Shown here: piece by piece, positions 68-56,627 of the stretch
How positions within the stretch are numbered: the first letter of the stretch is position 1
How the letters are laid out: each line of letters starts with the position of its first letter
Source: Perkinsus chesapeaki
Taxonomy: Eukaryota > Perkinsozoa > Perkinsida > Perkinsidae
Length of the DNA stretch: 64,000 bases
Assembly (NCBI GenBank): GCA_013115145.1
Contig: JAAPAO010000072.1
Span: 26,962-90,961, forward strand
Direction of reading: 5' to 3'
Program-made: the position numbers and the translations under genes
The notes under the pieces: model-generated
What the model saw: the letters and a program-made list of their open reading frames with translations, nothing else
Told to the model about the DNA's origin: nothing
Database searches by the model: none

Positions 68-2423
68 TCAGCTGTCCAAGAGAATGTTCGTATGGCATGT
101 TGGCCCCATACACCTTTCACTGATGAGCATGCCTGTCAAAATGAACAATACACATTGGCTGTTGCTGCTGACCAGTGGTGTTGCTGGAGGAGGGCCCACC
201 TGAGAGAGGGGACTCCTCGAAACCTTCCCGTTCACAATTGTCCGGACCAACGAGTCTCCCGTTGGTATTATTGGATGAATCAATTCAACATACTCAGGCA
301 AGGGATGCATCGGAGTAGACAATCTCTGAAAGAGGGAAAAGATACGCAAGCGCACTGCGAAGATTTCTCACCATAGCCTCAATCCACTTCCCATTTGGCC
401 GGGTGTACACATCAGTGGAGGCCAGTTTCCAGAGCACAAGTCCACCATGGTCATCAGAGCTAGCACAGTCACCGGTAATGTTATTAAAGCATACGTGTGA
501 TACAACTTGATTGTGAACACCACTGAGCTCAAATCTGATAAGGACCACCAACATTCATCGTCACTTCTGATGAGTATCTTTGTCTTACTCTAAATGATGG
601 TATTTAACAAGCTCTGGAACCCTCGGATAAGACTTCACTGGTCGCTCGCCATGCGGTTGCACGGAGAACACCCTTACACATTTATCACTGCAGCCAACTG
701 CAAACCAGAAGTTTAACGGCCGTCGTTTGGTGTCTTCTGAATAGCAATGGTGGATGAGCGATATGATGGTAGTAAAGCAGCAGCAGCATCACTACCATCG
801 ATTGCATTATCTAACCCAGGAAAGACATGAAAGCCTCTTATTAAAGTGTTATCAACATCCAGGTAGTATCTGTATAATAGATCATGAATAAGCATTGGAT
901 GATAGAATAATAGTTTAACTTGCAATAGCCCACTAATACTTCTCCACCATTGTCTCTCGTTACTGTACTCAGATCCCATATAAATATACCACCATCACAG
1001 GTAACGGTTATGAACACCTGAAAGGGGATCATGAATCGAACACGGGGACAGAAGTTGTGCTACTTGTTCGTGGTTTTTGGATGGAGTAAAAGCCATGAAG
1101 TGGACCTCTGCTGTGAACTCAAGCGCAGTTAAAGGCCGGCTCTGCTGGTCTTCATCGCTGACCTCCCATAATCGTACCTTAAATTGAGTGCTATGGGGAT
1201 CGAACCTACGCGGAACATGTCCAGTGAACCATAAGTCCACCCCCTTAACCACTCGGGCAAACACTCCAACGCTTTCGACGGTACGAAAACAATCGAGTAT
1301 AAAAATGAGAGCCCCTCATTATACATCCCTACCGTCTTATCTGTGGCCGAAGATGCAATGATCGTATCGCAATAATTAACAACCATTTCCATCACCTAGA
1401 AACCACAAATGCCTCAACCGGGGATCGAACCCCCGCGCATACCTCTCCAGTATGACCAGCTAATGTCGAGTTCAATATACCTGTCTTTGCATTCCACACT
1501 CTTAGGCGGTAGTCATCTCCACCAGTCACTATCACTCGAGATCCACACGCGAAATGTACACAATATCTGTGGACCATAGATATGGCATCTACAAGGTAGA
1601 GAGTCCCTCCCTTACACTGGCACTGGTGGCTGCTGCTGCTGTTGAGCTGCTGCTGCTGCTGATGATGATGGTTGCTCATGACCACTCTCATCCTCAGTCG
1701 TGGGAGGAGGGGGTTGAGCCTCGGCTGGTGCACGATGCCCAAGTACAGACCAGATACGTTGGAGTTTACGAGAATGCAATACCGATGTAACAGCAGGAGA
1801 TGGTCGATTGTTTGAGCCACCATGAATCTACACATTAACATCATCAGGAATACACCACCTTTGGTCATTATACATACCGACACTGCCGCCCTCCTCGTTA
1901 TAGACCTGTAAGTTGATGCCCACGTAGCTGCTCTACGCTCCGATGCGTATTCACCTGCATCAGGCTCCGAGTGCAGTATCGGGCTAAATAACGATTAATC
2001 GAAATTGACGACTGGTCCGAGTAATACCGTCCAGAGCAAAGTTGAAGCAGTCTATCCTTTGGCACACTATGGAGGTCTAAGTTCTTTATGGTAGAGTATG
2101 ACCTCGACCTAAATACCATCATCCTTTATAACTGGCAATCTACCAATTATACCCAAACAACCCCGATGCTTCGGCTTCCTCTTTTAAAACGTCTGCTGCC
2201 GAACTCAATGCCTGAAGGACAAGACAATTCGATCATTCATATACACCATTAATAACAATCTTTGTCAGACTCTGCCCTCTCCCACCAGTATTACCCCACT
2301 ACTCTGTAGATCTTCCAACATACTAGTAACAAGCAATAATAAATCCCTTGAGTTACCGTCCCAGTTGGCCCTCGATAAGGTATTACTGCTGCTATTGCTG
2401 CTGCTCCGTTGTTGACTACTCAT
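68..2423 (-). CDS. BRWD/PHIP-like WD40-repeat protein (multi-exon)
   Basis: WD40 protein resembling the N-terminal half of the bromodomain/WD-repeat family (BRWD/PHIP), which bind chromatin or act as ubiquitin-ligase adaptors. The start at 2423 opens a Ser/Gln-rich leader, then a LisH-like helical segment, then WD repeats. Repeat motifs seen are IVTGGDDYRLRVWNAKTG, the joined strand IIASSATDKT/VRLWEV, and GGIFIWDL. GT-AG introns of 47 nt (1396-1442) and 155 nt (1178-1332) are needed to restore the repeats, and both carry tRNA-like sequence. No bromodomain is visible. The 3' end near 68 is uncertain and the gene may run off the window. Family call is by order of motifs only. Confidence 0.6.
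1186..1266 (-). tRNA. Class II tRNA-like gene nested in an intron
   Basis: A full cloverleaf can be drawn in sense inside the 155 nt intron of the BRWD-like gene. The acceptor stem has 7 pairs, GAGTGTT with AGCACTC, one of them G-U. The D arm is CCC-GAGTGGTTAA-GGG, as in Ser/Leu tRNAs. The anticodon stem has 5 pairs, the variable arm is GGA-TCC, and the T arm has the B-box GGTTCGATCC with one stem mismatch. The loop CTTATGG would read UAU, which does not fit a Ser or Leu identity. It may be a recent pseudogene, a tRNA-derived intron, or a functional odd tRNA. Confidence 0.55.
1396..1442 (-). other. 47 nt intron containing a tRNA T-arm/B-box
   Basis: GT-AG intron joining LAGHTGE to the downstream strand VVNYCDTIIASS. 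More than half its length is T-arm-like sequence with the B-box core GGTTCGATCCCCG, followed by an acceptor-like 3' part ending GAGGCA. No 5' tRNA half is present. Confidence 0.7.
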
Positions 2424-2753
2424 TATAGTGATACATCCCTATATCAGGGAGAAATACTAACAGTTATTATTTACACTATTTACGCAATATATAATAAAAC
2501 GAGGGAAATGTTAATCACAGCAAGATGGGTGATAAAAATAAGCCGCCGCTTAACCTTACATAACCACACCAGAGTTGCCTGACAATCACACTGTCATCGC
2601 CGCCGCCGTGTCACCACCTGTATCATCACCTATTCTCTGTAAGCCTTTAGGAGCCTGTTTAGCACATTGCTTTGTTACTTCATCATCCAACATTTCTGTA
2701 TGTAACCAATTAAACCTATATCACATCTACACTAATAATACCACACGCACTAG

Positions 2754-3045
2754 TCACCTATCATTAATAACCTCCCTAGCATTAAGCTTTCTTAATTCTT
2801 TAGTCCAATAAACAGCTGAACCAGCTCGATACAGGAATGGTAAAGATAACACAGCAAGGAAGGTAGTACCCATCACTGTGGGAGAGTTCCAGAAGGTCGA
2901 CTGAGATAATAAATAGTATTATGATTATTATGATGTTTAATACCTCCCTAAAAGCGGACTTGAATCCACCAGCAGCCTTGAGGCCTTGTAATACACCAGA
3001 TGATTGTTGAGCAGTGGCTAGGCGACCAAAGGCAACTCGAAACAT
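2754..3045 (-). CDS. Small mitochondrial membrane protein, unknown
   Basis: About 82 residues in two exons joined by a 43 nt intron (2901-2943). The N-terminus MFRVAFGRLATAQQSS is Arg/Ser-rich, lacks acid residues and looks like a mitochondrial presequence. The second exon begins STFWNSPTV and holds one membrane segment (GTTFLAVLSLPFLYRAG) followed by a charged tail ending AREVINDR. The size and layout fit a small inner-membrane subunit of a respiratory complex, but no family is recognised. Antisense ORFs over this stretch are shadows. Confidence 0.45.
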
Positions 3046-3352
3046 GGTTAAAACCCAAACTAAAAATGCATAATGGTCAGTCGGATGTTGGTATATACGC
3101 ATCGGTGATGAGATTCACACAGCTAGTTAGCGCTTTCCAAGATATGGTGAGGGGCTGATTTTCAAAACCGCTTCCAGAAACTGTTCCAGAATAGCACGAA
3201 GCCTTGTCTATTGAACGGGCGGTGAGAGAGCTTGATTCCTGATTACTGTGAAGACGAGTTCCTCTGTATAATATGCTTCGCTCCGCTAACAAAACTGCAC
3301 GTTGAGTAGCGCACGCCCACTTACGTGTACCTTCTAATTAAATGACGTCAAG

Positions 3353-3523
3353 ATGTTATCTTATATGACTATAATATTAATGACAGCTGCAGGTAGGGAA
3401 TGCCCTCCTAATGCTAATACACACTGTTTTGATAATGAAGATTTTACATGTGAAAGATGCTGTACAACGGCACCCAATCAACCTCGAGGGAATCCTGAAT
3501 GTTGGATTGAATATCTCCAGTAA
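3353..3523 (+). CDS. Small secreted cysteine-rich peptide candidate
   Basis: Single open frame of 56 residues. It starts MLSYMTIILMTAAG, a plausible short signal peptide, and is followed by about 42 residues with six cysteines in the pattern C-x7-C-x7-C-x2-CC-x12-C. The spacing matches no family I can name with confidence. No intron is needed. It lies alone between a minus-strand gene and the kinase. The main doubt is whether so short a frame is real, as there is no homologue in the window. Confidence 0.35.
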   Translation: MLSYMTIILMTAAGRECPPNANTHCFDNEDFTCERCCTTAPNQPRGNPECWIEYLQ

Positions 3524-3787
3524 CTATAGCCTCTTAGAATAGGCACTTTTGGGAATTACTTTAATAATTGCATTAATATGCCGATAGGTATGAGCCGTGT
3601 TGCGGTACCGCAGCATTTGAAGCATCAGGGAAGTCCCTACCATTACCATCTTCACTTAACCTCAGTAACCTGCCTGATGTCCCGCCATAGACCGTACCAT
3701 GCTAATACACCTATTGTTGAGTTTCTGATAGACTAATATAATAGTTTTTCGTCCTTTTATAATTTCGGACGTCCAGTCTGGTGACCT

Positions 3788-5365
3788 ATGCAACAACAGA
3801 AGCCTAATACTCGATTACTGGCACAAAGCACTAATCTAACCAAGCGGTAGGACCAAAGAGGAGGTATATGGGGAAATTATCTGCATCGTCAGGTTCGAGG
3901 AGTCTGATAAAATAATTTATAACAGCGGTTTTACATGTACTGTGGTCCAAGGCCGTGACCGCGTCACTGATAATGTAGTATAGGACTGTTAGTCAACCTA
4001 AAAGGAATCTTTGTTAGAAAGTGGCTATCAAACTAGTCCAGAAAAAGAAGCTCGTCACCGATGCTGAGATAGAACGTGCCAGGTGATGATAGTAATATTA
4101 ATATGAACCAACTTAACATTAGATACGAGTTAAAGTATCATTCTTCATTGTCCCATCCTAATATAGTACCATTGGTGGCTTGTGAAGAGACTAATGAAGG
4201 TTTTATAGCAATAACGCCTTATGGTAGGAGCATAGCAACACTCCTTTCGAAGATGGTATCTATTAGCATGCGATGGAGACCTTTATGAGCTTACACATTG
4301 CACAACATTAACTGAGGAAGCAACAAGGAACTGCATTAGTCAAGTATGGCTCTTAAATGTGGCTCACATTGTGAAAAGAGTGTTGATAGATCCTTGCTGC
4401 TATCAATTATATGCATACTCAGAAGAGGCTCGTTCATGGTGATATTAAACCGGTAATAGGAGTGTAGAGTGGTTTATGATGATTACAGGAGGGGGGTTTG
4501 TTATTTAGCATAATATGTTATTGCGTAAAATAGAAGGTAAATTTATATTATTACTCTGTGACTTTGGATTCACAGAGGAGCTTCGACCACATACCAATGA
4601 TGTCTTATTCACTCAGCTTAGAGGTAGGCAACAACAACAACCTCTATGAGCTTGGATACTACTCTATAGGCACTTCCGGGTACTTCGCTCCCGAACAACT
4701 TGCTGGTCGAAATTACGATGGTAAAGTTGACGTATTTGCTGCTGGGGTTATAACATTCACTCTTATCGGGGTAATAATAATATCCCTTGCTCTGTTTTAC
4801 GCTGCCTGTTAGGGCTATGAGCCATTCTATCCTCCGGACAACATGTCGGAGCCGGTAGAGTTCGAACCACGTTATTGGCAACATGTGAGTGATGAAGCTA
4901 AGGATTTTATGAGGCGGTAAGTAACGTAATTTAGCCACTACTTTGACAGACTGAGGTCAGATGTCTCGCCATTGATCCTCGGCAACGAATGTCCTGTGAA
5001 GAGGCATTGGCCCATCCATGGCTATCGATGGGCATACCAAAGCATGTCAGTCGATATGTAAATGGATTGAAAGATTATCACTCGGGCTTTCAGACATCAC
5101 CTCGTGGTTCGGCGGAAGGGGACTATAGCATGAACCCTCCACCTGATGAAAGTATTGACTTTTGGAATGCAAAGGATGTTATTATAAAGGAGTTCGAGGC
5201 CTGTATATCGAATAGGAGTAATGATGTCCCATCTAAGTCGGAAAGGTAATATCACCTTCAGTAGTGTTGCTAGCAGCAATCATTGACAGTTTCATCGATC
5301 ACGACATTGATCTCTTCACATGTGCTGATGTTGCAGCTGGTCCACAGGCCGCTAAGGGATCTTAA
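3788..5365 (+). CDS. Divergent serine/threonine protein kinase (HGD variant)
   Basis: Multi-exon kinase. From N to C: a modified nucleotide loop NSGFTCTVVQG, the ATP-binding lysine in VAIKLVQKKK, SHPNIVPLV, the catalytic loop LVHGDIKPHNMLL, the metal-binding CDFGF, the activation-segment end GTSGYFAPEQ, DVFAAGVITF, and DPRQRMSCEEALAHPWL. HGD replaces the usual HRD arginine, and the glycine loop has lost most glycines. Catalytic Asp, Lys and DFG are all present, so activity is plausible. The C-terminal exon ends in a Pro/Ala tail at 5365. Introns are roughly 40-80 nt. The start was chosen because the MQQQKP exon splices in frame into the nucleotide loop. Confidence 0.75.
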
Positions 5366-16796: not shown

Positions 16797-16797
16797 T

Positions 16798-18878: not shown

Positions 18879-18950
18879 TTCCTACGCAACAGGATAGTTA
18901 TTTTGTTGTTGAATTGTAAAATGGTCGCGGGTTCGATCCCTGCAGTTTGC
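18879..18950 (+). pseudogene. Degraded tRNA relic
   Basis: The T arm GCGGG-TTCGATC-CCTGC at 18927-18943 is well paired, and the sequence ends AGTTTGCA like a tRNA 3' strand. The upstream half gives at best 4 of 7 acceptor pairs, and the anticodon loop is 13 nt. It sits antisense in the 100 bp between the methyltransferase start and the LON-RING stop. Confidence 0.4.
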
Positions 18951-18954: not shown

Positions 18955-20571
18955 TCATCCTATAAGATACCCCCCGTAGCGATTATCCAACCAACCGCTG
19001 TACTTTAAAAATAATGCCAGAAAAATGGCCAGTAACTGCACAACTCCGTCGGTTGTTAAATTCCCCTCTGATACCTTACCAAGGCGAAGCTCCAGCTAAT
19101 CCCTCGGAAGAGCCCGGGAGAGCCACCAGCTGCATCTTCCTCTAAATTGATAATCTGACTTGCACCGGCGTTATCTAAGAATACCTCTACCGGGGTTCGA
19201 ACCCACGACCTATTACCTATATAATCCTTGATTGACTGTACTCTAGTGAATGTATCCCTACTTCGTAGCCACTCCAATCTTAAAGTGTTCGGGGCTCTTA
19301 AACAGGAGCACAACCAAAATGAAAGCTTTTCCAACTCCAACGGTGTCATAGCCCCCCTAAAGGCTCGGCATCCCTCTCAATTAACCATTCCCACCTACAG
19401 TTGAGCCCTACTAGGCCTTCGCCTGTCACCATGTAGCTGATGAAACTTACGCAACCCCATCTCACCGACTCTTGGTAATCGATTATCGTATAGGAGAGAT
19501 AGGCATGTATTCGCTATTGGAGGGTTTATATGAGGTAAGTTTAATAATAATGACTTACCAAGCTCCATAGTGTTATTCTGCTGCTGCTGTTCTTCGATGG
19601 TGTCCTTAATCGGTGATGCGGCGTACTTTTTAACCCTTATACCCGAAGTATTGGTATCTACACCAAATAGAAATATAATGTAGTAAATGATGATATTGAA
19701 CTATCCAAATGATAGGTAACATAGTAGCAGCCAAGTTGCTCCACCTTCAACCTCATTTTCCTATTACATATCTCATTATTCCCAACAGCATTAACTCTTC
19801 CACGTCCAATAACAACTATACGATTCCCTCTAATCTGCGCTATCTCTCCCAATACTGCAAGACTATGCTGTTCACTGGCATCTATACCATAACATTCTGA
19901 CACCTCTAGCCATAAGTATCATTATACCTTCCATTTCAATAACAACACTTCTTGCTGCCCCTCCTCTCCATATCCCCCTAGCAGCCTCAGCTTCTATTGC
20001 CTCTACATTAACAGCTAACCTATTGCCATAAGGATACAGCACAGCACCCTCTGGCAACCTAACAGATCCGCCTGACCCCAACCACCTCGAATGAACGTAC
20101 TTAATAAATGGGAAGAAAACACCGTGGTCAGCAGCAGCAGCCGATGCATCGGTAGAGCTCGAAGATTCCTCTTGAGCCTCGAGCTCCTTGACCTCATCAA
20201 GCCTAGTCGCGTATTCTTGAGGGAATCTATGCAGTTGTTGGTCGTGACGGTGATAGGTGGTAAGGTTACTTATGTTGAATTAAATTGGCTATCATAACAT
20301 TAGTGTTCCCTATAAATGGACATGGTGCTCGACAGGTCTGAAGGTTAGGGCTTAATTGAGCTAATTATCAGTCTACTACTGGGCATAGCTGACGATGGTC
20401 CATGCTCTTTCTGATACAATATTTGCAAAAAGTGTGACCACATGCAGTCGTTACCGGCCTGCATTCGACATCGATAAATATCTTTAAGCGCACACCCTAC
20501 TCCACTAGAAGCCTCAGACAAATTGGGCATTCAAAGCAGCTACCAGCTGTAGTGGGCTCTGATGACTCCAT
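18955..20571 (-). CDS. RING-LON-TM protein (LONRF-like)
   Basis: Exon 1 encodes MESSEPTTAGSCFECPIC. 42 nt introns join the RING finger as RLLVE/PVTTACGHTFCKYC, then QLCP/TCRAPC and NTNVMIANLIQHK. A polar linker leads to a LON substrate-binding domain: GAVLYPYGNRLAVN, GIDASEQHSLAVLGEIAQIRG, VVIGRGRVNAVG and LSFWLCSCLRAP. The last exon adds a membrane segment, ALLLAIFLALFLKYSG, before the stop at 18955. RING plus LON-sub is the LONRF/CRBN-like ubiquitin-ligase layout. A C-terminal anchor is not usual for LONRF. One intron (19175-19216) carries a tRNA T-arm. Confidence 0.8.
19175..19216 (-). other. 42 nt intron made largely of a tRNA T-arm
   Basis: GT-AG intron restoring DYI/DNAGASQI in the LON protein. 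It contains AGGTCGTGGGTTCGAACCCC, a tRNA variable-loop plus T-arm consensus, in the sense orientation. Confidence 0.75.
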
Positions 20572-28444: not shown

Positions 28445-29615
28445 CTAAATTTCAGTGGACTCTAGGAGCTCAGGAACGCTCGGAGGGGGTGGGATGAATA
28501 AATCAAGCGCGCCAGGATATAGCGAGTCTAACTTATTGGCTCTGTCTTCACCAATACGGTCCACGTATCTAGCGGAGCGAAGCGATTCATATATCACTTT
28601 TTGGAATGGGCGACCTGCTTACCCTTTCCATGCACGTTCACCTTCCCCTTCCCTCTTCTCCCACATTTTCAATAAATCAGAATATGACACCACAGCGCCA
28701 AACTCAGAGATATCTCTCATCCGAATGAACTTACCGGTCGACGCACTCGACGAAGATACTCTAATAAAACGAACAATGCAAAAAGCGCTCGCCCAGATGA
28801 TCGATTTCTATCGGGCCTACTCTTCGACGGCGGCCTTGAACATTGCCTCTGCCATCACTGCATTGCCTTCAACCTCAAAATTGATGCCTTTTGTGACCAA
28901 AGCACGGGCGACGTACCTGAACCATAGTTAGAGAAATACCCGCGTTGTAAGGACACACGTCTTTTTGATCTCCTCGTTCGGGATTGTCTCGCACAACTTC
29001 AGCGCGGTATCGTCCTTCTCGACCAACTTACCGTGAGCCTCTTTACATTGCTGGACGAGGGGAGCATCAAACCAACTAGATAACAAAAGATACAAAAGAG
29101 CTCAGATTGATGGTAACTTACTGATCCTTCAGCACGGCAGTCGCCACAGGTACACCATCCTTCAATGCAGCCTCAGCCTTAGACGCCACAGCACCTCTCA
29201 AGGCGAGTTGGGTAAATCCTTCACCGAGCAGACTAACACTATTGGCAGCCGAGAAGGATTGAGCAGCGGCATCCAAGAACCCTTCATGCCTAAGAAAAAA
29301 TGAAGTCGTATAAGCACGTCGACACTTACCATTGCGCAATGCCAGCTAGCATATCACACAGTGCGGTCTCCGCCTCCATACGCGCCGGGCTGAAGACGTC
29401 GTGACCTGAAGGAAGACCAGTCCGCCAGAGACACAAGGCGACGGCTTACAGCGCTGAATGAGAACTCTTGCGGGCTGCCATTTGCCGGCCTCTGCAAGCT
29501 TCAATGCTTCATTGAAATCAGGCAACTGTCGGGCACTGGTTGAGAGGGATCGAATGCCGCTGCCGAGGATCGAACTTGCGCCTGATTTACTCGCTATAGA
29601 TAATGGTGACATCAT
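28445..29615 (-). CDS. Mitochondrion-targeted helical repeat protein
   Basis: Starts MMSPLSIASKSGASSILG with an Arg/Ser presequence (IRSLSTSARQ). An alanine-rich helical part follows with TPR-like pairs: FNEALKLAEAGKWQPARVL, HEGFLDAAAQSFSAANS, YVARALVTKGINFEVEGNA. The last exon (YVDRIGEDRANKLDS) ends in a Pro-rich tail. Five or more short introns are needed. The final one ends exactly in the motif CGCTTCGCTCCGCTAG that recurs in other introns. No family is recognised beyond helical repeats. Confidence 0.55.
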
Positions 29616-30176: not shown

Positions 30177-33100
30177 CTATCGAGAATACCCCCGCGAACC
30201 TCTGTCGATGTCTACACCCTTCAGGGGTAACTCGACGAGCAAATCTTACGGCGTAACTCAGCCGATGACGTAGTCCAATATGATTCGGTCTTAAATGACG
30301 ATGCTTACCATTAAGATCGACATCACCTCCGATCACAACAGCCTTCTTGGTGGTATCTTCTTGAGAATGCGACGACACCTAAAAACCTTCTAACATACAC
30401 ATCGTTCGAGCAGCTTACAAATTTCTGCCCAAATCTGGCCGAGCTTGCTGTCGCCGGCTTTCCCTCAGAGTAGCCAAGTCCGTGCCGTTGCTGCGGTCCT
30501 CCACCAAGTGTTGCTCTCTTGAAACCTTTGGCAGTTTTGTGGCCGAGCTCACGGGCGGCTAAAAGTGAATAACTGGAGAAATGCACTTCCACGGAGACCG
30601 ACCTGCAAACGGAGGGAACTCCAAAGCATAGTCCATCAATTGCGATGGAACCTCCTGGAAGACAATATTGTGGCGCGTGAAGCATTCCCCCAGCTGATCT
30701 ACCTGTTGTGATTTTTCCATATACTCAACCAATTCAGCAGCCATCTTCGCCGAATTCTCCCTCTTGACCAGTAAGGTGGTAGCATGACCGCTATGACCAG
30801 CCCTACCAGTACGGCCCAATCGATGGGTATGTGTAGTGAGATTGCCTTGTGGAGAACGACCAATACGGAGTCGACCATCATCCTGCTATACCTGTTACTT
30901 ACCCGACATATCGTAACATATGACTTCTTTAACTGTTGGTATATCGAGGCCTCTACTCGCTACATCAGTCGCTACCAACACCTTCGTCTTGCGTGAGCGG
31001 AAGTCCGACATTATCTGCTTGAGTTGTAAATGCGTAAAAGTAAACATCAAATTGTTAAGTACACATTAATACAGTGAAATAAACAAAATTTAATATCGCT
31101 AACTGATTTCAATGTCGACACATATCTGCCATTATTCACCAAGTTGCTGATTGAGCGGAGCCATGGAGATTTGGGCTAAAAACTTATTAAATACCAATTG
31201 AAAAGCATTGTTCGTTCTGTTGTGATATTCCTTTAATATCGGCGGCATAAAGTACGGTATCAGACTTATAAAAATAGTGTGACCCAAAGGGCTGAAAAGC
31301 CCTGGTCCTATCAGCTTGATGGGACTTTGAGCCATCGCGAATTTTTCTCGGTTACTATTTCCATTTCTGGTGAACCACAAGGAATAGAAACCAACAATGT
31401 GCAAGCAAACTATTTCTCTTACCAAGTCATGCCCAAGCACAGATGACAGCATTCCTATCTACACCGCCTCGCCGCCTCCGCCGCTGTCACTCACCTTCAT
31501 TCGCTCATTCTGATCCGAGTCACCATGCAAAGCCTCACACGGTATCGACATGAACTCCTTGATCGCCACTGCAAGTTCTGATGCCGCCGACTTCTGGTTC
31601 ACAAATATCAACACTTGACCATCCTGAGACATAATCTGCACGCATGCACAAGGTAATATGATTCTTCCTAACCTCTTCTTGAGCTTCGTCTAAGATTCGT
31701 GGAAGGTTCTCAGATAACCAATTGAACTTGTCGTCCTTTTCATCAAGAACCACCACTTCCTGTGCAACGGCGTGAGCGGCTCCACCGGTGGTGGCGCTCG
31801 CACCGACAAATAGTCTCACAGGGTTCCTGAATTCGACCTATATCGTATGTTACTCGCTTAACCTTAAGATACCTCATGATATCACGTGCTAGCCTTTCAA
31901 TCTTCGGCGGCATAGTCGCCGAGAACAACATCGTTTGTCGATCAGGTCGTACTCTTTGCACCAAACAACGTACCTTCATCAAAACGTAATTCCTGAAGCG
32001 CTCCGCTCCGCCGTACTTGTTTCTCAAAGCCCATATTAAGCATCCGATCTGCCTCATCTAACACCACCCACGCAGTGTCTCCAGTAAGAGACATTCCGTG
32101 CTCCTTGACAATGTCAATGCATCTACGAAATCGCCACATTTCGACAGCGAAGCGAAGCACAGGGATTATTCTCCTCACCGGCCTGGGTTCGCCACGACTA
32201 TATCGCAATTGCCTTTCCTCAAATCTTTAAACTGTTCATATTTTGATAAGCCTCCGGCCAACGTAGTGCCTGAGATAATGTGTATCTTTCGACCTTCAAC
32301 CTCAAGATACGATTGTGTGCAGCTGTCCCCTTTTTTGTGTGCTCACTTGTGATTCCAATATGCCTTCCCAATTTATAAATCGTTTTTTCTATCTGCACCG
32401 CCAGCTCCCTCGTCGGGCACAAAATCTGTCAAAAAGTGACAATTCGAGCGGCGGAGCGAAGCAGATGGATCTCACAAGGGCAAAAGGGCTAGCAGGATGC
32501 TCCTTGGTGACAACTGATCGACTGGATGTATCGGCCTGCTCCTTATGATACATGATGTGCATCACAACCGGCATTAAATAGGCAAGTGTCTTCCCGCTGC
32601 CTGAAACGAGCTCAGATGTCCCAGCCCGGTTTCGAACCATAGGCTTTTAGAATGCGAAACATACACCCTAACCGTTCCGCCACTCAGTCTCTACCTGTAT
32701 CAGCGATAGCCATGACATCCCTTCCTGCCAATACCGATGGTATTGCAGCACACTGAATCGGAGTCGGTTTCTGCCAGACCAAAATACTAAATCGATCACG
32801 TGTTCGATTTCTTCACCTCAAACTTAGCATGCTTTAAAGCCTCTGCAACAGCCAGCGGAGGGCAACACTGTTCGAATGTCGACACTGCCCGAGGGACCTG
32901 GAGCGATTATCGAAAAGTCCGGGAATTAGCTAAATTGCGGCGGCCTTACCGATTGGCCCGTTGCCGATATGCATTTTTCTTTATTAAACTTCCTAACCTC
33001 CACATCGGACATTCCGCTAACTTCCGGATCCGCTTTGTACGGCCATCTAACGTACATACCCAAAAATGCCAAAACAAAAATCGCTTCGCTCCGCTGTCGT

Positions 33101-33843
33101 TACCTGTGAACTGTAGGATATTCCTTTCCCTCATGGTCCATCGGTGGCAATACTTCCATTGCTTTCTTCCGACGATCGAGTATCTCATCTTCCGGTGTCA
33201 TCTCCGAGTCATCATCATTATCTTCCTCAGTGACCCCTGTACTGCTGCCACCAAGGCTCATGCCAGCCTCCTGACAAACCAGCACCGTATCCAGTAAGAT
33301 GTAGTATTTACAAACCACTCAAGGAATGCTCAAAGGCCCCTCCCGCGACTTGGGCAGTTCCGCCACAATCATGAACAACTATACCGTAAAAATACGGAGT
33401 TTTAGGCAATCAAAAAAGTCTTGAAAGCCGCGCAAAGGCCTCTCACCTTTTTTCTCCTCTCAAAAGCCTCAATTGCAGTTTCTTCATCATCATTACCCAT
33501 TATCTCACCTTCATTCCGATACTGAAAACGATAAAACAAGTACATCGCTCCGCTGTAAAAACGTGCCATGTATTACATTTTTGGTAACAGTTTTCTCATT
33601 AGCTATCTCAGTCTCAATACCAGCCATGAAGGCATCTAACGGGTCCACTTCGCCTTTGCCCTGCCCCCCAGCAGCGACGCCTGTGAATGGTAACAAAGAC
33701 ATTATTGGACGATCTATTGCCGGATCGAATCTGTCCGTATTGCCAGAGTACTACTACTACAACTACACTGCGCAACGCATTCCTGGAAATCAGAGTTATG
33801 CGCCATATTTCCTCAAAGACTGATTTCTTCCATCATATAACAT
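30177..33843 (-). CDS. DDX42: DEAD-box RNA helicase, DDX42-like
   Basis: ATP-dependent RNA helicase of the spliceosome-associated DDX42 group. The N-terminal acidic region has [18 protein letters not shown] and [13 protein letters not shown], matching the DDX42 pre-core. The core follows: [13 protein letters not shown] (Q motif), [14 protein letters not shown] (I), [12 protein letters not shown] (Ia), [16 protein letters not shown] (II), [16 protein letters not shown] (III), [15 protein letters not shown] (IV), [15 protein letters not shown] (V) and [15 protein letters not shown] (VI). The tail contains HGLGYSEGK and ends GSRGYSR. Many introns of 24-100 nt are present, plus one of 480 nt (31015-31494). 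The first intron junction near 33760 is unclear. Confidence 0.85.
32601..32694 (-). other. 94 nt helicase intron holding a whole tRNA-like sequence
   Basis: GT-AG intron between IADTG and SGKTL of the helicase. Positions 32618-32691 read like a class II tRNA. An A-box-like D arm contains GAGTGGCGGAACGGTTAGGG, and the B-box is GGTTCGAAACC. The acceptor strands no longer pair and the T stem is degenerate. Confidence 0.65.
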
Positions 33844-43756: not shown

Positions 43757-46700
43757 TCAATTATCATTTTTCTTTTCTTTAACTGCGGCCAAGGCGGCGA
43801 GCAGCGCCTCATTTGGGCTCAAACCAGCAGCGACGTATCTGACATGCATACCTTCGCTGCAACCGGGCAAAGGATGATGGAAATACTCATCGAAAAGGCT
43901 CTTGATTCTGTCTTGGGTTGAGTTCGCCGTGACTGAGGATGGCTGGGACGGCGGCGGCGGAGGGGGCTGCTGTTGGGTAGATTTGATAGGAAGGAACACC
44001 TATGTGAGGTAGAGTAAGCCATGTCCCCAGCGCTGCCTATGGAACTGGTTCAAAATTGGACCGCCATAGGAGCAAACAAATGCTTAAAAAATCTAAGGTT
44101 CTTTTTGTTCATTTACGATGGCAATACCTCACTTCGCTCGTAAATCTCACGCGCCACAAAATTATGAGGTATGAGCCCTTTTTTCGCACCACCCTGTCTT
44201 AGCTTACATGCATTGTAACATCAGCAGGGGGAGGAAAGAGGACACCACCAGCGCCATCGCCAGACTGAACTCCATGTGCCATAGCCAAGGACAATTGAAA
44301 CCTAAAAATGACATCTGTCGGATTCGAACCCGGGAGTGTTCCTGCTGCTGCTGCTCACTTCGTAGCATTCTTCTCTGGACTTAATGTCATCAAAACGGCT
44401 CTGGTCATCGGCGGTATAGTGTCCTGTGTAGTCAGACTTCCCCGAGATGATACGACGTTTTTGGACTCACTGGCGTCGAGCTCGATAACAAAGGAACTGA
44501 GCAATGATGCCACATTAATTCAACTGGCAGCCCGCCGACCATTTAGCCGATCATCGAGCTGTAAAATATTTTCATATAATCTTTACAATATGTTCTCGTT
44601 TAAAAACCAATAAGCGCTGACAATTGATCGAAATCTCAACCTCACTTTTTCGTCCTATATTCCAACATAGATGCTAACATAACAATTTTCCAAGTTCCTC
44701 CAAAACAGCTTTAGATTTGTGTGCAACATGGCCTCCTTACCAATCCTGTCGTGTGTTCTCTGCACATACTATTGTCCCTGAGCTGTCTTGGCATATATAT
44801 ACTCCGATCCCTGGAGCTACATCCCTTCGTTTACCGTATACTGTAGCGTAGGCAAACCTGAAAGATACAAGGATAACAAAGTGAGCTAGAAGGAAGCTTG
44901 GTTGGACATCTGAGGACATGAAAAACAGTTGTCCTTTACTCCATGTTTCAAACAGCTCTAGTGAGCGGTGGATGTGAGATTCGTCAAAACCGATTGAGCA
45001 TATTTTCAAGAGTTTAATCGGTGTACATTAGCCTTACGTAGCCGAGCCTGACTCTATCCCATTCATCCTCTTAGACGGCGTGATAGCCTTCAACTTCTGT
45101 GATGAATGGATCGCCACTGTACCTGGGAATATGGAAATTGGAACTTGGCAGAGGATGACCGACTTTACTCTTTCTGTGGCCCAACTCCATCGAGTGAGAA
45201 AACGACAAAGGAACTATACGGTAGGTCTCTCCGCGCTTGAGGAATATCTCCGTGCTAACCTGTGACTAGATGCACCACGAGAATGCCAACATCGTTTACC
45301 TCAGGCATCATGTCCCTCTTGGCCGTACCGGCACATTCGAGCAGCTCACCAGTAGAAGGATCGAGCCGAAGGATAACCAGACCGATGTCCACCAGCGTGC
45401 TGGCCATACCAACCGCGCTCTCACGCGTCTTGTTGCTCTCCTGGTATACTGTAATGTCGACCGAGGCATCTAATCGACGTGTTGAGCAGCTCACATGCAA
45501 AGGCGGACACACCTTCATCATCGGGCGCAGTAACGGTAAACATCTCGCCGAGACCTGTTAAAGCTGGCAGCCAGCATCGCTGCCTTACAATGGCTTCAGG
45601 GGGATAATCCTCGTGGACCTGTGATGGCAGTCGGACGAGGGGACGTGAGAAGTTTGCATTACCCGACAGATCTCAAGGCTTGCAAAGTATTCAACTACAT
45701 CTTCCCAGGACATCCAAAACAGGCCGTTGGAATCGTACCTGTTATGATACACCATTACCACCCTATCAGCGTTACTCCCTACATAGATACTCCAGCGCTG
45801 TTCACAACACCGAGCTCCCGTTTAAGCTCGTCAGTCCATTTGGCAGAGTCTCGTGACCAATCACCATTCCACGACCCTACAGGAGACATTTAATGGATTA
45901 GCAAACGTGTGCTTAGGATTACTCGGGCTCTGAGCTCCCCATGGGTTCCGCAATAGAAGAAGACGATTCTCACCAACCTCTCTCACATCCATTATGGAAT
46001 AAGCATGAGGCGCCTAAAGTGGAAAGGGAGTGCAAACCACAGTCTTATTCGAATACCCAACTACGACAAGGATATCCCCTCAGGTGTATCTTACCTGAAG
46101 ACCTTTGTCTTTTAACTCAGCTCTACTATGCTTGAACGTCGGTGCACATGCTACACCAAGTAAGTACCTGTTGTGTAAAGCTCCTACGCTTCTACGAGAA
46201 GCATTTTGACTTAAAATTTTCAAGCCCTAAGAACTAGGTTTTCTAGAGAAGAAGTTGAACGGCGGCTTCACCCACTATAGTGGTGCATCTTTGGCATCTT
46301 TGCATAGGTACTGAGTGACTCAGTACCTACCTATAGACTCAGTCTGAGTCTACCTCGCTACTGGGTCATCGATATTGCCGATGACACATCGGTCACAATA
46401 GCGATTCGGTAACAACAGCAGTAGTGCCGCAGCGGCACTGCCGCTGCCAAGTGCGACAAGGAGGTAGATGGATGCACCAACACAACCCGCTGATGAGATA
46501 ACTTAACGGTCGAGTTTCAACGGAACGGCCATAGCAGTAAGTACTGTATCTGGGTTCCTGGCAGGCACCAGCCTGGTTCCTGCTTGGCACATCCGTCACT
46601 AAGTGTTACTCATTGTGGGCACCATTGATGCTTATCTGTGGAGCCTGATATCAACTACAACCATTGTTTACTCTCCACGATAGTCACACGATAACAACAA

Positions 46701-50409: not shown

Positions 50410-50548
50410 TTTCCGTCCAGATTTTCGACCCCCAACAAAACCGCTTGCTTGGCCGCATCACCGGCCAGACCTGAGCCATTCGATGAAGCTGAACTCCCGC
50501 TCATATTAGCCACTCCAACACAAGATGGTTCGCAGCAACAACATGAAT

Positions 50549-51816
50549 TTATTTTTGTGAGGATTCTGATTTTTCTAAATGTTTCCGCATTAGCTCTCTG
50601 GTGGCATGATCGGCTCGTCGGACTGGTTCGGGGACTCTAGAATTGTTACTGCAACATTCAAGACAGATATCAATGGCTGATGGTAGGGATATTTTATGCC
50701 CAATAGAAACGTATCTAATAAGTAACGCACTGTAAAGATCCTGATAACGTTGGGATTTTAGAAAAAGTGAATCTAATGGATATCGCACTATAAAGAAAAA
50801 AGGTATCTAATGGATAGCGCACTATGAAGAAAAAGGGTGTCTAATGGATAGCGCACTATGAAGAAAAAGGGTGTCTAATGGATAGCGCACTATAAATGTT
50901 TTATCCAGAAGAACAAGCCTATGGTTTATTACACTGGATTAATTGCATCATCTGACGACCGCACTGCAGCACCGTGAATAAAACCTGACCACTGAAATCA
51001 CCCAGGCCTGCACGATGGCATACCATCCTCCGAATCTTCAATATAGAAATGATCCCCCATTTGATGAAGCTCCCTATGAGCTCGAGACCTGGCATCATCT
51101 CTTGATGGTAAAGTTGGCATTGAGTAGTAATTCTTAGCCACTCCGATGGAAGGGACCTGATAGAGATGATCAAGGCGAACAAGGAAAACATAGAAAAAGG
51201 TTATGTTGTGTGGGAGCTCCGCCTTAGTCAAGTTTATTGGAGAGGTATGGTATGGACTAATCCAATGCTGAATTTACCAGTGTAAACGAAATACTGTATT
51301 CCAGCAAGTGGCGGTATCCTTCTTACATTAGCAATAACTCCAAGATGGCATGCAGCACCGCATCGTCGGGGATGAAAGATACCATTACCATCCACCATGA
51401 TGAGATCCAATCGTTGAGTACTTGGAACACGGTTTAAGAGTTTAATCATTGGTTGGAACTCTCGAAATGCGAGAAACCCTGGCACATATGGCTGGGTGAG
51501 ATCGACTGTTATATAGTCCTCATAAACGGTTGATAGGGTAGATACTTCAATGATTACTAGACCCTGAGAAAGATACAAAGCTAGGTCGAGTGGGGGCAAC
51601 TGGGAAAAGTGCTACCGCCACGCAGAAATCTTCATGGAAAGTCGGGTCAGATGTTATATCGAGGCCGCCAACGAACTCGCACTGAAAAGATTTCTTTGAG
51701 GTTAGAAAGTCGACCCCCGCAGTTAGCACTTGGAAATCATCGTCTTCATGTGTTATTATTTTATTGCGAATCTCCTCTTGCTCTTCAACCCAATGAGAAG
51801 GAACATTCATATTCAA
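50549..51816 (-). CDS. ENDOV: Endonuclease V
   Basis: Nuclease for inosine-containing nucleic acids (family role). The start region MNMNVPSHWVEEQEEIRNK is followed by FVGGLDITSDP, the first catalytic Asp region. Then come ITVDLTQPYVPGFLAFRE, DLIMVDGNGIFHPRRCG and HLGVIAN/VPSIGVAKNYY. After these, AVRSSDDAINP joins to YVSIGHKISLPSAIDICLE, and RVPEPVRRADHATRELMRK ends the protein. All family blocks are in order and the length is typical. The intron at 50715-50932 contains tandem copies of the downstream splice-acceptor region. The 5' leader carries a tRNA T-arm (51860-51881). Confidence 0.9.
50761..50895. repeat. 34 bp minisatellite of decoy splice acceptors
   Basis: About four tandem copies, with core (plus strand) TCTAATGGATAGCGCACTAT, inside the endonuclease V intron 50715-50932. 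Read in the gene's direction each copy holds CCATTAG followed by A-C/T, matching the true acceptor TTATTAG|ATACG with its exon start. Confidence 0.9.
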
Positions 51817-51859
51817 ATAAGGATAACGAATCCGATAATAACGAGAATAATTACTCTAA

Positions 51860-51881
51860 CCTCGGATCGAACACACGACCT
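51860..51881 (-). other. T-arm/B-box in the endonuclease V leader
   Basis: Sense-strand AGGTCGTGTGTTCGATCCGA, preceded by an anticodon-arm-like TGATACGAAAGG. This closely matches the tRNA-like part of the CDPK intron at 54327-54419. It may lie in a 5' UTR intron. Confidence 0.5.
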
Positions 51882-51960
51882 TTCGTATCACAGTCCGCTG
51901 TCTCCCTCGCTGGACTGCACGCATGTGATTTAAGTATTTCACAATTTTGGTCCCTCTTGT

Positions 51961-53130
51961 AATCTTTTTCCTTCCCCGGATATATTCCGACACTCACTTC
52001 ATAGACTACTCAAATACAAACAGTCGATTCCAGAATAAACATTTTGTAGACTCGGCTGCCTGCTTCATTCACCACCTTAACCTTGCCAGGTATGTTGTAT
52101 TTACCATTAACATTTAGGGAAATCTTAGGCGAGCTTTTCGCTGTCAATAATTTCGCGTTCCCCAAAAACCTCCATCAGGAGTCTATATCGTCTGAGTCAT
52201 AGAAGGGAACTATTCCCGAGAGGAGGGTATCTGATGTTTTCTTTTGCTCTATGAGCATGTTTCCTATCAATATCTACTCGCTTCATCGGATGAAGCGTCA
52301 CAGAAATGTGTTTCTTAGAGGATGAAGTTCACCCCCTAAACCGATTAGCATATTTTCTACTCGTAAAGGAGATCTGGTTATGAATGTTCTATTTGTATAT
52401 AGTTTTATGAAGCCATTCTCATTTGTATACCGTAAATCCAGTTATCGTCCATTAGACCAAAGAGTGAGCTTTGGCAGCACCAGTGAAGGGTCCACTAGAG
52501 CTGGTAGAGATCATTGCAAGTAAGCCTACCGTCATATCTATTGGAGCAAGTGATCTATTTAGGTTCGGATGTGGTAGGCCATGTGCTCAGGGATTCACAG
52601 CCAGTCTCGAAAGGTAGCAGCAATAACAGCGGATACTTCACATACTTCCCCTGTAGACTTCCTACGGGCATTCATTTTCCCCTTTTCATTATTTTTATGG
52701 GTTCGTTATTTCCTGCATTAAACGTTTCTCCCTTGCTTTCCCTTGGCACCATAAGGACGTTGTATTATTTAGTATTTTATAATACTCTTATTAACAATAT
52801 TAATTATGACGTTCAAACATTTATAATACTTTACCTACCTCTCACTATTCTACACCACATCAGGACGTCCCCATCCGAAAATACCTGTTATTCCGTACAA
52901 TTGTCCTTAAAGGCCAATTTCAACAAAATCCCTTAGTCGTACCGAAAAACCGTCTTTGCTGGAAAAATCGGCCGGAATTTTCCGATTTCTCGCCCACTTG
53001 TGAAGGTTGACATATACAAACCGTATACCGGTTCTTACGTTCGATTACACTTCATGGCCGATTGATAGATCTGTTGAACGATAAAAGTATAGTACTACGA
53101 CGTTACTCCTTGTTATTGTAGATACGATGT
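51961..53130 (+). other. Mostly AT-rich spacer
   Basis: A 140-residue plus frame (52514-52936) is hydrophobic and AT-driven. A short coding-like plus stretch (ALAAPVKGPLELVEIIASK near 52470) ends in a donor-like site. No gene model could be completed. Confidence 0.35.
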
Positions 53131-53139
53131 GTGTTGTTG

Positions 53140-53593
53140 GGGGTGTGCTCAGACCAACGGGAAGGGTCCGCATGATCCTCTGTGTAATGTTGTAGAAAAT
53201 ACGATAGAAGTAGGTCTCCGGTTCGGACCCTGGCTGGGGTATTTTTAAACAGGCACCGTCTGTTTCCACAGCCCTTGGTGGCCCTAGTGGATCGGCCTTG
53301 GAGATTGAGGAACGTCTTAAGGAGTTGGCTCGGGAACCTCCTATGGGAGTCGAGGCTCTTCCACAGGAAGGGGGTCTCAATGAGAATGATATGCGCAAAT
53401 TGGTGAGGCTTGACGGAGAGAGTGGTATGAGGTTAAGGTGCAGGTTGACAGGATCTCCGAAGCGGTGGCGGTTAACAATATATCCGATAAGAATCTTCTC
53501 ATCTTGTTTACTCGTTTTTGTGACCAACAGACCGGTGAGTTTCGCACTATGAAGATTTTTAAAAGCGTATCTTTTAGGTTTGATAACCCGTAA
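53140..53593 (+). CDS. Unknown protein, partial model
   Basis: Exon ending GKGPHDPLCNVVENTIE, a 43 nt intron with tRNA T-arm (53210-53252), then APSVSTALGGPSGSALEIEE and LKELAREPPMGVEALPQEG. After a probable 48 nt intron follows EWYEVKVQVDRISEAVAVNN, ending FKSVSFRFDNP. The charged helix and the final beta-rich part are coding-like, but no domain is recognised. The start is not found. A 220-residue antisense frame over the same DNA is taken as a shadow. Confidence 0.45.
53210..53252 (+). other. 43 nt intron with tRNA T-arm
   Basis: GT-AG intron containing GGTCTCCGGTTCGGACCCTG, followed by GGGGTA and a T5 run before the acceptor. The T5 run after the tRNA-like end also resembles a polymerase III terminator. 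Confidence 0.65.
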
Positions 53594-53731
53594 TGAGTAT
53601 CCTTCATTTTGGCGAGCATTGTTAAGGTTCCTGCGTAAATCGCTTAAACGGCACACACCGAAACTTCGGGTTAAAAATGCCGCTCGTGGGGATCGAACTC
53701 GCGTCATATTCCCAGGTCCACCGTGCCTTTC

Positions 53732-56627
53732 ATGTCCTTCGTAACAACTCCTCTGGAGGTGTCAGAAAAGTAAAGGCCATGGGTTCAATCCCGAGCGTCG
53801 GGAATTCTTCAGGTATATAATTTCTTAGAGACAGTCGGCCGAGGAAGCTTCGGTGTAGTTCATAAAGTAGTACACAGAAAAAGTGAACAGGTATAAATCT
53901 TGCAAATCTTGCATTTCCTCAACGCTATTCCAGCTCCGGGTGTGCAAAAGTGTTGACAAAGCGAAGTCGTCGGTGCCGCTGTCCCAACTCGAGGAGGAGA
54001 TTAAAATAATATCGCAATTGGATCATCCAAATGTTATTAAAATATACGAATATTTTGAGGATCCAAAGTAGGGTATACCCCAATTTTGAGAGAGTTTGCG
54101 GAGAGAGCGGTATAGGCATATCCATTTGATAATGGAAGCCTGTTGGGGTGGCGAGCTCTTGTCGGTTATACAGAAAGCAGTTAACAAGGGAGTGTGCCCT
54201 CCTGCGGCTTTTATTGCAGATGTAGGGTGAGGGGGAATTTCGTGGCGCGGTGACTATTTGGTATAGGTTACGAGGGAAGTACTTACAGCGTTGTCATTTA
54301 TGCATAATCAGGGAGTAGTTCATAAGGTGAGACTTTCATGCGAAAGGTCGTGGGTTCGAATCCCATGCCTGTCATCTCTCGATGGAGACAGTTTTTGTGT
54401 CGAATGCAGCAGCTTGTAGGATTTAAAGCCCGAAAATATATTATTTGTCGACATGTCAGCGGAGCGATGTATGTATCCTGGAGGTCCCCCCAGAGCCTCA
54501 GGTTTGGAGGAAGTGTCGGTATGAGATTTACGCTCCTCCTTCATAGGCAACGTTAAAGTTATCGATTTTGGTCTGGCTGAGTTGTTTGCCAGAGACAGTG
54601 ATAAAAGCATGAATGTGAGGAGAGAGAGAGAGAGAGAGCGGTATGCACGCATGCGCATGTATCTTAGGTCGCCGGTACCGCCTTCTATATGGCACCTGAG
54701 ATCTTTAGGCCGCCATTTGATTACAAATGTGACATTTGGAGTCTTGGTATTGTCGTGTAAGATGGAGGTTGATTCGATGACATCTATCACTGAGAAGGTA
54801 TCTTATGCTCACTGGATATCTGCCATTTTTCGGGTCTAGTGTGAGTGAGGTTAAATCTAATGTAATATAAGGGAAGGGCTATTCCTATTACACATCGAAC
54901 ACATCTCCTCCCGTTTAGTACGTCTAGTGTCTGCATCATGTCCAATGCTGAGTTACCCTACCTACTACGTTGGAGAGAAACCTTTCAACCACTTCCACAA
55001 ACTGCCCTTTATCAAGCCTCATCAGTAAAGACCATCCCTGGCTTATCCTTGTTGGTGTGGCAATCTCTGCGGGGTTACCCTCAACAGTAGAGCCCGATGG
55101 ACACTTGAACCTCGAATACCCGTACACTGTCATTCCGTACACTTTGCTGAAATGAGTCGAGTAGACTGCGTTAGCCGTAGACGTGATAGAAGTGATTGAA
55201 AGAAGTATGTCAGGTTTTATATAAGAGGGTTCAATGGCCCGATTATATTTGTAACTCCACGCGGCGGCTTCGGGTTCCAAAAGCGGCTAAGGATTTGGTA
55301 TCCTGTGAAGTTGATTTGAGATTTACTCACATAATAGGTGGAGAGAATGCTGGTTAAAGATCCTGAGCTTAGAGAGGGGGCATCGGAGCTGTTGAAGCAT
55401 CCATGGTTCGATAAAGCATCCTCGAATGGGTCGGGTGGATGGAAGAGTGTAAGGCTGGATGGGCGTCATAGGCCGCCGACATCAGGCGGGCCAGGAGGAT
55501 CTCATACGGTATCTTATTGGGTAGAGAGACGTAGTCCTTATTAGACTCTCCATTGAGCATCTTCATATGAGTGTGTGCAGAAGATGAGGGTGTTGGTTAG
55601 GTTATTAAACTACTATCGGGTGGAGTGGTGGATTGTATGTGCTATTATGCCAGACAAGATGAACTTAAGAAGGCTGTTGTTAACTTAATAGCACATCAAT
55701 GGTCATTTGAAGAACAGGAAAATGTAGTAGGAGTTGGGGGGAATATAGGAGCTGCCTTGTTCATTCGGGATACGCAACCCATGACCGGTTTTACTGACCT
55801 GGAAAGAAGGTCTATAAATGTGGTCGAGTCGAATTAAGTACTGAAGCGGGACCAGACTCCATAGTCAGAGGGACTCCTTCTTTTAGTCATTATTGATGCT
55901 TAGATGTGGGCAAACTGTGGTATGGCAGGTCAGGAATCTCTTTACTGGTCTGGATTTGGATTCGGAAGGTTGTCTACCGGTAACAAGAATGGCTGAAGCG
56001 CTGCAGCAATGCCAAGTTAAAATGAATCCCTCGGATGCGCGGAGAATAGCCTCTGCCATGGATAGAACCGGGGATGGTTGGTGAATGAACTAAAGTCTTA
56101 TCCAGCTCCGCTATTTTAGGGTATATTGGATACACAGAGTTTGTAGCAGCTTGCATTATCCGTGAGTATGAAGTAGCATTTGAATCTGCCAGACTGCCCA
56201 TCCAGGGCGGCTTCAACGTGAAGAGGGTGTCATCAAAGCAGCGTATCGTTCCTTCACTCCATCCAAGCCGACTATTGGGATGAGTAATGCACTGAAGGCC
56301 CCAACTGTACAGGAAGTCGCTGAGGCTCTTTGGGAAGTGCTCGCTGGGGAAAGGTAGATAGGAGCCCAGTGATGGAAGAGGGCACACTACGGTTTGCTCA
56401 GATGTGCATTGACTGACTATTCGGATGAGCCAGATGACAGGCGAGCGAGTAGGGTTAGCTTTATGGTGGGGTAGCGAGAGGAGCCTTCAGGAGCGGTGCC
56501 TGCTCGACCACGAATGTTGGATGTTTCAATGGAAAGGTTTAAAGGATGGATTGAAGAGATGGACGCTAATAATGATGGCTATATCAGCTTTGAGGACTTT
56601 AGACTATGGCTGGCTGGTCAGCAATGA
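53732..56627 (+). CDS. Calcium-dependent protein kinase (CDPK)
   Basis: Start MSFVTTPLE, spliced to [18 protein letters not shown] (glycine loop). Next come [48 protein letters not shown] (HKD variant of the HRD loop), [26 protein letters not shown] and [20 protein letters not shown]. The domain end is [19 protein letters not shown] with LLKHPWF. The junction helix starts [15 protein letters not shown]-hands include [32 protein letters not shown] and [14 protein letters not shown]. The expected activating lysine exon (VAIK) is weak, with CKSVDKAKS at that place. Around 13 introns are needed, including two with tRNA T-arms. Confidence 0.85.
53759..53812 (+). other. 54 nt CDPK intron with T-arm
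   Basis: First CDPK intron, between codons for PLE and VYN. It contains GGCCATGGGTTCAATCCCGA, a B-box with tRNA variable-loop sequence upstream. Confidence 0.7.
54327..54419 (+). other. 93 nt CDPK intron with tRNA 3' half
   Basis: Splits VVHK/DLKPEN. It contains an anticodon-stem-like CATGCG, then AAGGTCGTGGGTTCGAATCC and CATGCCTGTCA, i.e. the 3' half of a tRNA up to an acceptor-like end. Confidence 0.8.
54619..54638. repeat. (GA)n microsatellite in a CDPK intron
   Basis: About ten dinucleotide units immediately after the donor of the intron preceding [11 protein letters not shown]. Confidence 0.9.

Follow-up and report, generated by a model that had tools for sequence, protein, structure and literature searches.

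Short sequences resembling tRNA-gene 3' ends in predicted introns of Perkinsus chesapeaki and a possible route of intron gain

Mass intron gain, as described in the portions of PMC9860276 used here, is mostly the work of DNA-transposon-like introners that were found through high similarity between introns, a family being defined by at least four introns. Known introners form families of highly similar introns, some of them with TSDs or TIRs (PMC9860276; PMC7789003; in the parts drawn on here). The elements that we describe in Perkinsus chesapeaki are like the introners of Micromonas, Aureococcus, Symbiodinium, Amoebophrya and others in that one sequence is common to many introns of a single genome, in that the element apparently supplies splice signals, and in that the host is an aquatic protist close to dinoflagellates. 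Unlike introners, they share only a tRNA-like signature of about 36 nt and show no clear TSD. Amoebophrya, a related alveolate parasite, also has repeated intronic elements, its non-canonical introns carrying repeats, both inverted and direct, together with unusual splice sites (PMC7789003, same parts), whereas the Perkinsus introns are GT-AG, the one type that our gene finder allowed, and contain a tRNA-like motif. The words 'tRNA', 'SINE' and 'Perkinsus' are absent from the main text of PMC9860276, and among the papers listed by searches on tRNA-derived introns, introners and Perkinsus, no title or abstract opening describes the birth of a spliceosomal intron from a Pol III sequence.

Two further kinds of sequence invite comparison. 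With tRNA-derived SINEs and tRNA pseudogenes the Perkinsus elements share an A-box and a B-box at tRNA spacing (in some copies), a terminator-like T-run and the loss of the T-stem; in contrast to both, most of them have neither an A-box nor a common body, and many are whole small sense introns. Extra-TFIIIC (ETC) sites are likewise isolated B-boxes conserved away from tRNA genes, but the Perkinsus elements differ from them in their conserved A73 and terminator spacing and in their sense bias.

The window, that is, the whole stretch of 64,000 nt that was analysed, is part of contig 687 of the P. chesapeaki assembly (35.4 Mb in 884 contigs), to which all genome counts refer. One protein that the window encodes is 100% identical to P. 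chesapeaki FOL47_009885, with 96% of the query covered. Genes were predicted with a hidden-Markov gene finder that is blind to the B-box, was trained on the open reading frames of the window and of twelve stretches of about 10 kb, and was retrained on its own introns, 17 of the 291 training introns carrying a B-box in either orientation. Its initial settings under-called introns (21), and the credit given to splice sites was then adjusted; in the window and the twelve stretches it predicts 289 introns with a median length of 46 nt. The eight introns that the sequence-only reading had proposed in the window, six of which the gene finder recovers exactly, are as follows.

1178..1332, minus strand: GT-AG intron of a WD40-repeat gene; the gene finder gave 1244-1332, with an identical donor
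1396..1442, minus strand: 47-nt intron of the same WD40 gene; exact gene-finder call; WD40 Pfam match across the junction; element 31.9 bits
19175..19216, minus strand: 42-nt intron of a gene whose product resembles a P. olseni LON/RING protein; exact gene-finder call; element 38.2 bits
32601..32694, minus strand: 94-nt intron of a DEAD-box helicase gene; exact gene-finder call; element 18.3 bits; A-box-like, tRNA-like sequence upstream
44302..44358, minus strand: 57-nt putative intron with B-box TGTCATTTTTAG; exact gene-finder call, though in a short two-exon model
53210..53252, plus strand: 43-nt intron with B-box variant GGTTCGGACCC; exact gene-finder call; element 34.0 bits
53759..53812, plus strand: 54-nt putative intron before a kinase N-lobe; missed by the gene finder; the unspliced frame has a stop; element 19.2 bits
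54327..54419, plus strand: 93-nt intron of a protein kinase gene; exact gene-finder call; HK/DLKPEN restored, with a Pkinase Pfam match across the junction

All eight segments run from GT to AG on the strand claimed for them, and each contains a B-box with tRNA-like flanks, although the consensus GGTTCRANNCC that had been ascribed to the whole set is exact in seven and carries one mismatch at 53210-53252. The further proposal that every one of them restores a conserved protein motif holds for four, the two WD40 introns and those of the DEAD helicase and the kinase, where Pfam domains cross the junctions; for the other four it is the gene finder or the reading frame that speaks for splicing. 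A Pfam WD40 repeat thus spans the spliced junction ATDKT/VRLW of intron 1178-1332, and splicing out 32601-32694 restores ADT/GSGKT, with the Pfam DEAD domain running across the junction and a homologous helicase aligned there gap-free. The 19175-19216 segment, left unspliced, is in frame and has no stop, and the sole relative found for its gene, the P. olseni protein P0005, ends before the junction.

Intron 1178-1332 contains a full-length tRNA-like pseudogene in sense at 1185-1266, followed by ATTTAAG as the 3' splice site. ARAGORN reads this pseudogene as tRNA-Ile(TAT) and the Rfam tRNA model scores it at 42.4 bits; across 77 nt it shares 89.6% identity with a tRNA copy at a contig end in locus L128, which reads as Leu(TAA) and has no ARAGORN call, the contig end cutting the copy. 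The same sequence type occurs at several other places.

The exact B-box matches the window 10 times, two of the matches being one palindromic site, against a mean of 0.71 and a maximum of 5 in 100 dinucleotide shuffles. Eight of the matches lie within seven of the claimed introns; a tRNA-Cys gene holds another, and the remaining one is at 18930. Four window elements stand outside the eight introns.

18930..18940, plus strand: B-box of an element outside predicted genes; exact match
29566..29576, minus strand: B-box of a degenerate element within a same-strand predicted exon; 18.7 bits
51863..51873, minus strand: B-box of a degenerate element outside predicted genes; 13.7 bits
53689..53699, minus strand: B-box of an element that runs antisense to the kinase gene, read as exon by the gene finder; 36.5 bits

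Judging by its sequence, the last of these is a candidate antisense intron that may end in TTCCCAG at 53715, with tentative boundaries.

In the genome the exact B-box is found 1,209 + 1,223 = 2,432 times on the two strands, against 299 + 267 = 566 for the reversed pattern. When the B-box is followed by 9 nt and YATTTT, a layout that is that of a tRNA gene 3' end with its Pol III terminator, there are 421 places against 0 reversed, and with at most one mismatch 1,218 against 12. A tRNA-Leu-type A-box pattern occurs at 22 places, and AGTGGT as A-box with a B-box at tRNA-like spacing at 144 places against 7, real tRNA genes counted in; tRNA genes, in unstated number, are likewise included in the B-box and YATTTT counts above, the tRNA family search having scored the best 63 of 3,361 candidates. 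P. chesapeaki hence harbours many hundreds of short sequences that resemble tRNA-gene 3' ends, and probably more than 1,000. For closer study, loci L040-L051 were chosen for listed B-boxes and L052-L131 for B-box plus YATTTT matches, the latter sample comprising 80 stretches out of the first 100 of the 421 places; since these loci were chosen by motif, densities in L040-L131 are not genome averages.

The elements have a common layout of G46, C48, the B-box, 10 variable nucleotides, A73 and a T-run of the Pol III terminator kind. The donor of sense introns precedes the B-box by 3-26 nt in 38 of 42 cases, and the intron ends 6-20 nt past A73 in 41 of 42, with a median distance of 10 nt from A73 to the 3' splice site. 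Typically the T-run and the next AG form the 3' splice site, and the intron is then little more than the element; the description of several introns as a tRNA 3' half plus splice sites was thus often borne out, also among predicted introns elsewhere in the genome. L061 offers a short, clear form of 41 nt, GTAAGT followed by GGTCGTGGGTTCGAATCCCGGCTAGGGCA and TTTTAG. Within the sense introns, G46, C48, the B-box, positions 64-65 and 70-73 and the T-run are rich in information, which in part reflects the way elements were selected; there is almost none at 66-67 and 69, and little upstream of about position 42. An A-box-like sequence stands at tRNA distance in 13 of 122 elements, whereas two control windows gave 1 between them.

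The notion that these introns are built around a T-arm as an RNA structure, on the other hand, found no support: in 122 elements, 11 of 133 having been removed by a flank-score cut ahead of the pairing counts, the pairs 49-65, 50-64 and 51-63 occur at shuffle level, with G-G the commonest combination at 49-65. Of 43 sense elements, 18 retain the full four-pair stem, again the shuffle level, and one of many subset tests, that of Watson-Crick pairs at 50-64 in non-intronic elements, gave p = 0.02. In 24 degenerate elements with both A- and B-box, picked by eye from 100 listed places, T-stem pairing behaves alike, whereas all 13 of 13 listed tRNAs have it paired. Acceptor-stem pairing with upstream sequence was in no excess among the elements, with one 7-bp match, at L108, where a perfect acceptor-like pairing (GTCATCG/CGATGAC) encloses a shortened tRNA-like body. 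With T-stem pairing at shuffle level, conservation seems to concern a linear sequence, a Pol III promoter box plus terminator, rather than an RNA structure.

This result weighs on the idea that fragments of the cell's own tRNA 3' ends, or reverse-transcribed ends of precursor tRNAs, were inserted directly during repair. The 3'-end layout with its terminator-like T-run agrees with such an origin, as does the element of intron 54327-54419, which equals a tRNA-Leu 3' end at 17 of 20 flank positions. Nonetheless, the T-stem pairs of the 122 elements stand at shuffle level and their flanks are overall no closer than shuffles to 30 tRNA ends, an incomplete set, so that we consider direct insertion of this kind improbable. 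Derivation from specific tRNAs was likewise examined and set aside: flanks agreed with the 30 tRNA 3' ends, a set from which many tRNA species are absent, at 12.6 of 20 positions, against 12.0 of 20 for column-shuffled elements, the tRNA-Leu-like cases being exceptions.

A comparison fixed beforehand, that of B-box density in introns with shuffled sequence, came out in favour of enrichment: a sense T-loop with at least two of four flanking pairs is present in 15 of the 289 predicted introns and an antisense one in 8, where shuffled introns average 0.5, while in exons, with five times the intron length, 13 are sense and 7 antisense. Of the 13 loci behind these counts, 12 had been pre-chosen for B-boxes. 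In introns that lack a sense T-loop, the antisense B-box ATCGAAC ranks among the most enriched words (8 against 0.3). A profile of 36 columns, built from 91 elements of other loci, gives 45 matches in 183 kb, 6 of them tRNA genes, against about 0.5 in shuffles. The 39 non-tRNA matches fall in same-strand introns (15), opposite-strand introns (5), same-strand exons (4), opposite-strand exons (3) and outside these (12); predicted introns make up 8% of the 183 kb, yet hold 20 of the 39. Their B-box is exact in 30, has one change in 7 and two in 2, with widely varying flanks, which may mean that the B-box is held by selection or that the insertions came from many sources; this constancy is suggestive only, because exact B-boxes made up the training set and are the ones that detection favours.

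Placement was compared in equal 526-nt windows, L118, L063 and L128 being left out of this control and of some later tests. Of the 115 elements, 43 were put in sense introns, compared with 1 of 38 real tRNA genes and 11 of 400 random sites, positions unscreened for elements (p = 8e-6 against tRNA genes and 1e-21 against random sites); the corresponding figures for antisense introns are 8 of 115, 1 of 38 and 9 of 400 (p = 0.03). The sense excess is decisive and the antisense excess slight, and the ratio of 43 sense to 8 antisense among the 115 elements has p = 7e-7. Elements called exonic number 10 of 115 on the same strand and 11 of 115 on the opposite one, and those outside any predicted gene 33 of the 84 picked outside the big loci (82 with YATTTT plus L002 and L008) and 11 of the 31 in the big loci. 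Exonic-called elements such as L106 and one near window position 1200 look by eye like missed introns. Upstream exons end in AG in 33 of 56 motif introns against 108 of 321 other introns (p = 5e-4), as expected for insertion into proto-splice sites.

The claim that the motif lies in sense with its host gene therefore survives as a genome-wide bias, with 48 sense introns, and fails as a rule, with 13 antisense cases, a tally that counts in L118 and L063, both sites of ARAGORN tRNA genes. The antisense introns at L061, L081 and L082 look convincing. L063 is an ARAGORN tRNA-Arg(CCT) gene whose intron call is doubtful. At L118, an ARAGORN tRNA-Val(TAC) gene, the T-run ends in TTTTAG at the called 3' splice site, and either a tRNA gene lies inside an intron or the intron call is false.

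Might the association be due to chance or to an artefact of gene prediction? The introns are predictions and not based on cDNA, and the tRNA genes L063 and L118 were called intronic too. The controls with real tRNA genes and random sites, the Pfam domains and the homologue aligned across junctions, and the zero reversed matches to B-box, nine nucleotides and YATTTT in the whole genome speak against this explanation, however, and make it very improbable. Selected binding of TFIIIC at the DNA level, with elements being ETC sites that are intronic by chance, would agree with a B-box that is better kept than its flanks and with the 33 of 84 elements outside predicted genes, but DNA-level binding predicts neither the sense bias nor a conserved A73 and T-run, and we hold it to be highly doubtful.

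A recent copy-and-paste introner family did not emerge from a genome search with 54 introns, which among the best 40 of 86 candidates returned one near-copy, in a neighbouring paralogue, together with weak matches to other elements, three in all and 31-37 nt long. The near-copy links L105 and L132 on contig 88, adjacent P-type-ATPase-like paralogues (VFSDKTGTLTC, by eye) with a near-identical element-bearing intron in which one T-run base is changed; the upstream exon is more diverged than the shared intron, which suggests gene conversion, as far as these sequences can tell. Within the motif (49-51, 63-71), 35 pairs among 116 elements agree at 10 or more of 12 positions, against 9.7 in shuffles (38 against 10.5 in a parallel count), so there are subfamilies. 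With tRNA-like and L069-type elements removed, 29 pairs agree at 17 or more of 34 positions upstream of the motif, against 18.7, the largest shuffle reaching 28. Cross-matches between introns, such as that of L045 with L050, cover 28-39 nt at 82-88%.

Two longer dispersed repeats of SINE-like look, about 190 and 100 nt long and with copies 78-94% alike, also carry the B-box motif.

L069-type repeat: L069, L089 and 10 further places
L096-type repeat: L096, L111 and 4 further places

A many-copy consensus with body and tail, by which a SINE is recognised, is absent for the introns, several copies being seen only in these two repeats. The genome has 56 reverse-transcriptase matches, and in a weak test the 11,973 bases downstream of four reverse-transcriptase genes contained no motif such as a LINE partner would have at its 3' end. 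Empty paralogous sites were sought with 19 spliced junctions, which matched only their own loci in the assembly, and flanking repeats that might be target-site duplications were not clearly longer than with swapped flanks.

These observations bear on two rival accounts. According to the first, the introns belong to a copy-and-paste introner or SINE family whose members are more closely related than they appear; the motif in the L069 type (11 places besides L069 itself) and the L096 type (5 besides L096), the excess of pair agreement inside the motif, the cross-matches of the L045/L050 kind and the reverse-transcriptase matches are all in keeping with it. An upstream similarity close to shuffle level after the exclusions made, and a search in which 54 introns yielded a single near-copy in an adjacent paralogue, weigh against it, and we think it improbable, on a par with the direct insertion of tRNA fragments. 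According to the second, the motif was selected within introns that already existed, for splicing or a co-transcriptional function, for instance as a pyrimidine tract with a protein-bound site resembling a T-loop, and did not make introns by insertion. The 43:8 sense bias, the tight spacing between A73 and the 3' splice site as against a broad one on the 5' side, the retention of the B-box amid varying flanks, and searches that found no clear copies, flanking repeats or empty sites all speak for such selection. On the other hand, tRNA 3'-end spacing is kept, A73 and T-run included and sometimes with an A-box at tRNA distance, antisense introns look convincing, a full-length tRNA-like pseudogene is among the cases, and no more than about 5% of predicted introns have the motif in sense, although the loci had partly been picked for it. 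We regard selection within pre-existing introns as unlikely, if not lightly to be dismissed.

Other features of the introns are recorded here in their own right. A second short motif, AGCGGAGCGAWG(C), has 12 of 18 sites in predicted introns, in both orientations, and occurs 277 + 290 times in the genome against 1 + 4 for its reverse. The window introns that contain it are the following.

28569-28622, minus strand: intron with AGCGGAGCGAWG(C)
32426-32475, minus strand: intron with AGCGGAGCGAWG(C)
33047-33103, minus strand: intron with AGCGGAGCGAWG(C)
33522-33576, minus strand: intron with AGCGGAGCGAWG(C)
57593-57635, plus strand: intron with AGCGGAGCGAWG(C)

Three such introns are in the DEAD-box gene that also holds a B-box intron, and the motif is present at L042, L046, L049 and L050 as well, with flanks that look unrelated by eye. 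No strong branch-point consensus for the B-box to mimic is obvious in the other introns. The usual U2 snRNA has AAGTGTAGTATCTGTTCTT at its branch-recognition stretch; the sole U2 match in P. chesapeaki (L039, G000:C487:17856-18062) reads, on one strand, AAGTGTATGTATCTGTTCTT there, and from this sequence branch-site pairing in the species may differ from the usual.

The explanation that we favour, in which we place about as much belief as doubt, is that the elements are old, mostly 5'-truncated tRNA-like Pol III insertions that were retained in sense as introns. The spacing of B-box, ten nucleotides, A73 and T-run, sometimes with an A-box, argues for descent from tRNA-like Pol III sequence, and a splicing motif that resembled all these tRNA features by chance seems implausible. 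The ancestors may have been tRNA genes or tRNA-like SINEs already without a cloverleaf, and from the loss of the T-stem it follows that the source was not simply functional tRNA genes. Four things lead us to infer that insertion made the introns: the elements lie mostly in sense, the exons before them tend to end in AG, the splice sites abut them, and there is a tRNA-like pseudogene among them; intron 1178-1332, with that full-length pseudogene, would be an intermediate. Entry into genes would mostly have been as 5'-truncated pieces, and sense insertions would survive because the Pol III terminator provides a pyrimidine tract, its T-run and the next AG working as a 3' splice site. Presumably, then, a tRNA gene 3' end could act as a ready-made 3' splice region, composed of B-box, about ten nucleotides and terminator T-run. 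The elements would by now be old, with random flanks and a B-box better kept than its surroundings.

In its most specific form, which we advance tentatively and with a little more doubt than belief, this proposal states that hundreds of Perkinsus introns were gained by sense capture of a tRNA-gene 3' end, the Pol III terminator being reused as a polypyrimidine tract and the B-box still being held constant. The origin of introns is a long-standing question, and the present case hints at an unrecognised route of intron gain in a clam parasite. If tRNA-like Pol III sequence does turn directly into introns, gain of this kind would be missed by similarity-based screens, because only a short motif is common to the introns that it produces.
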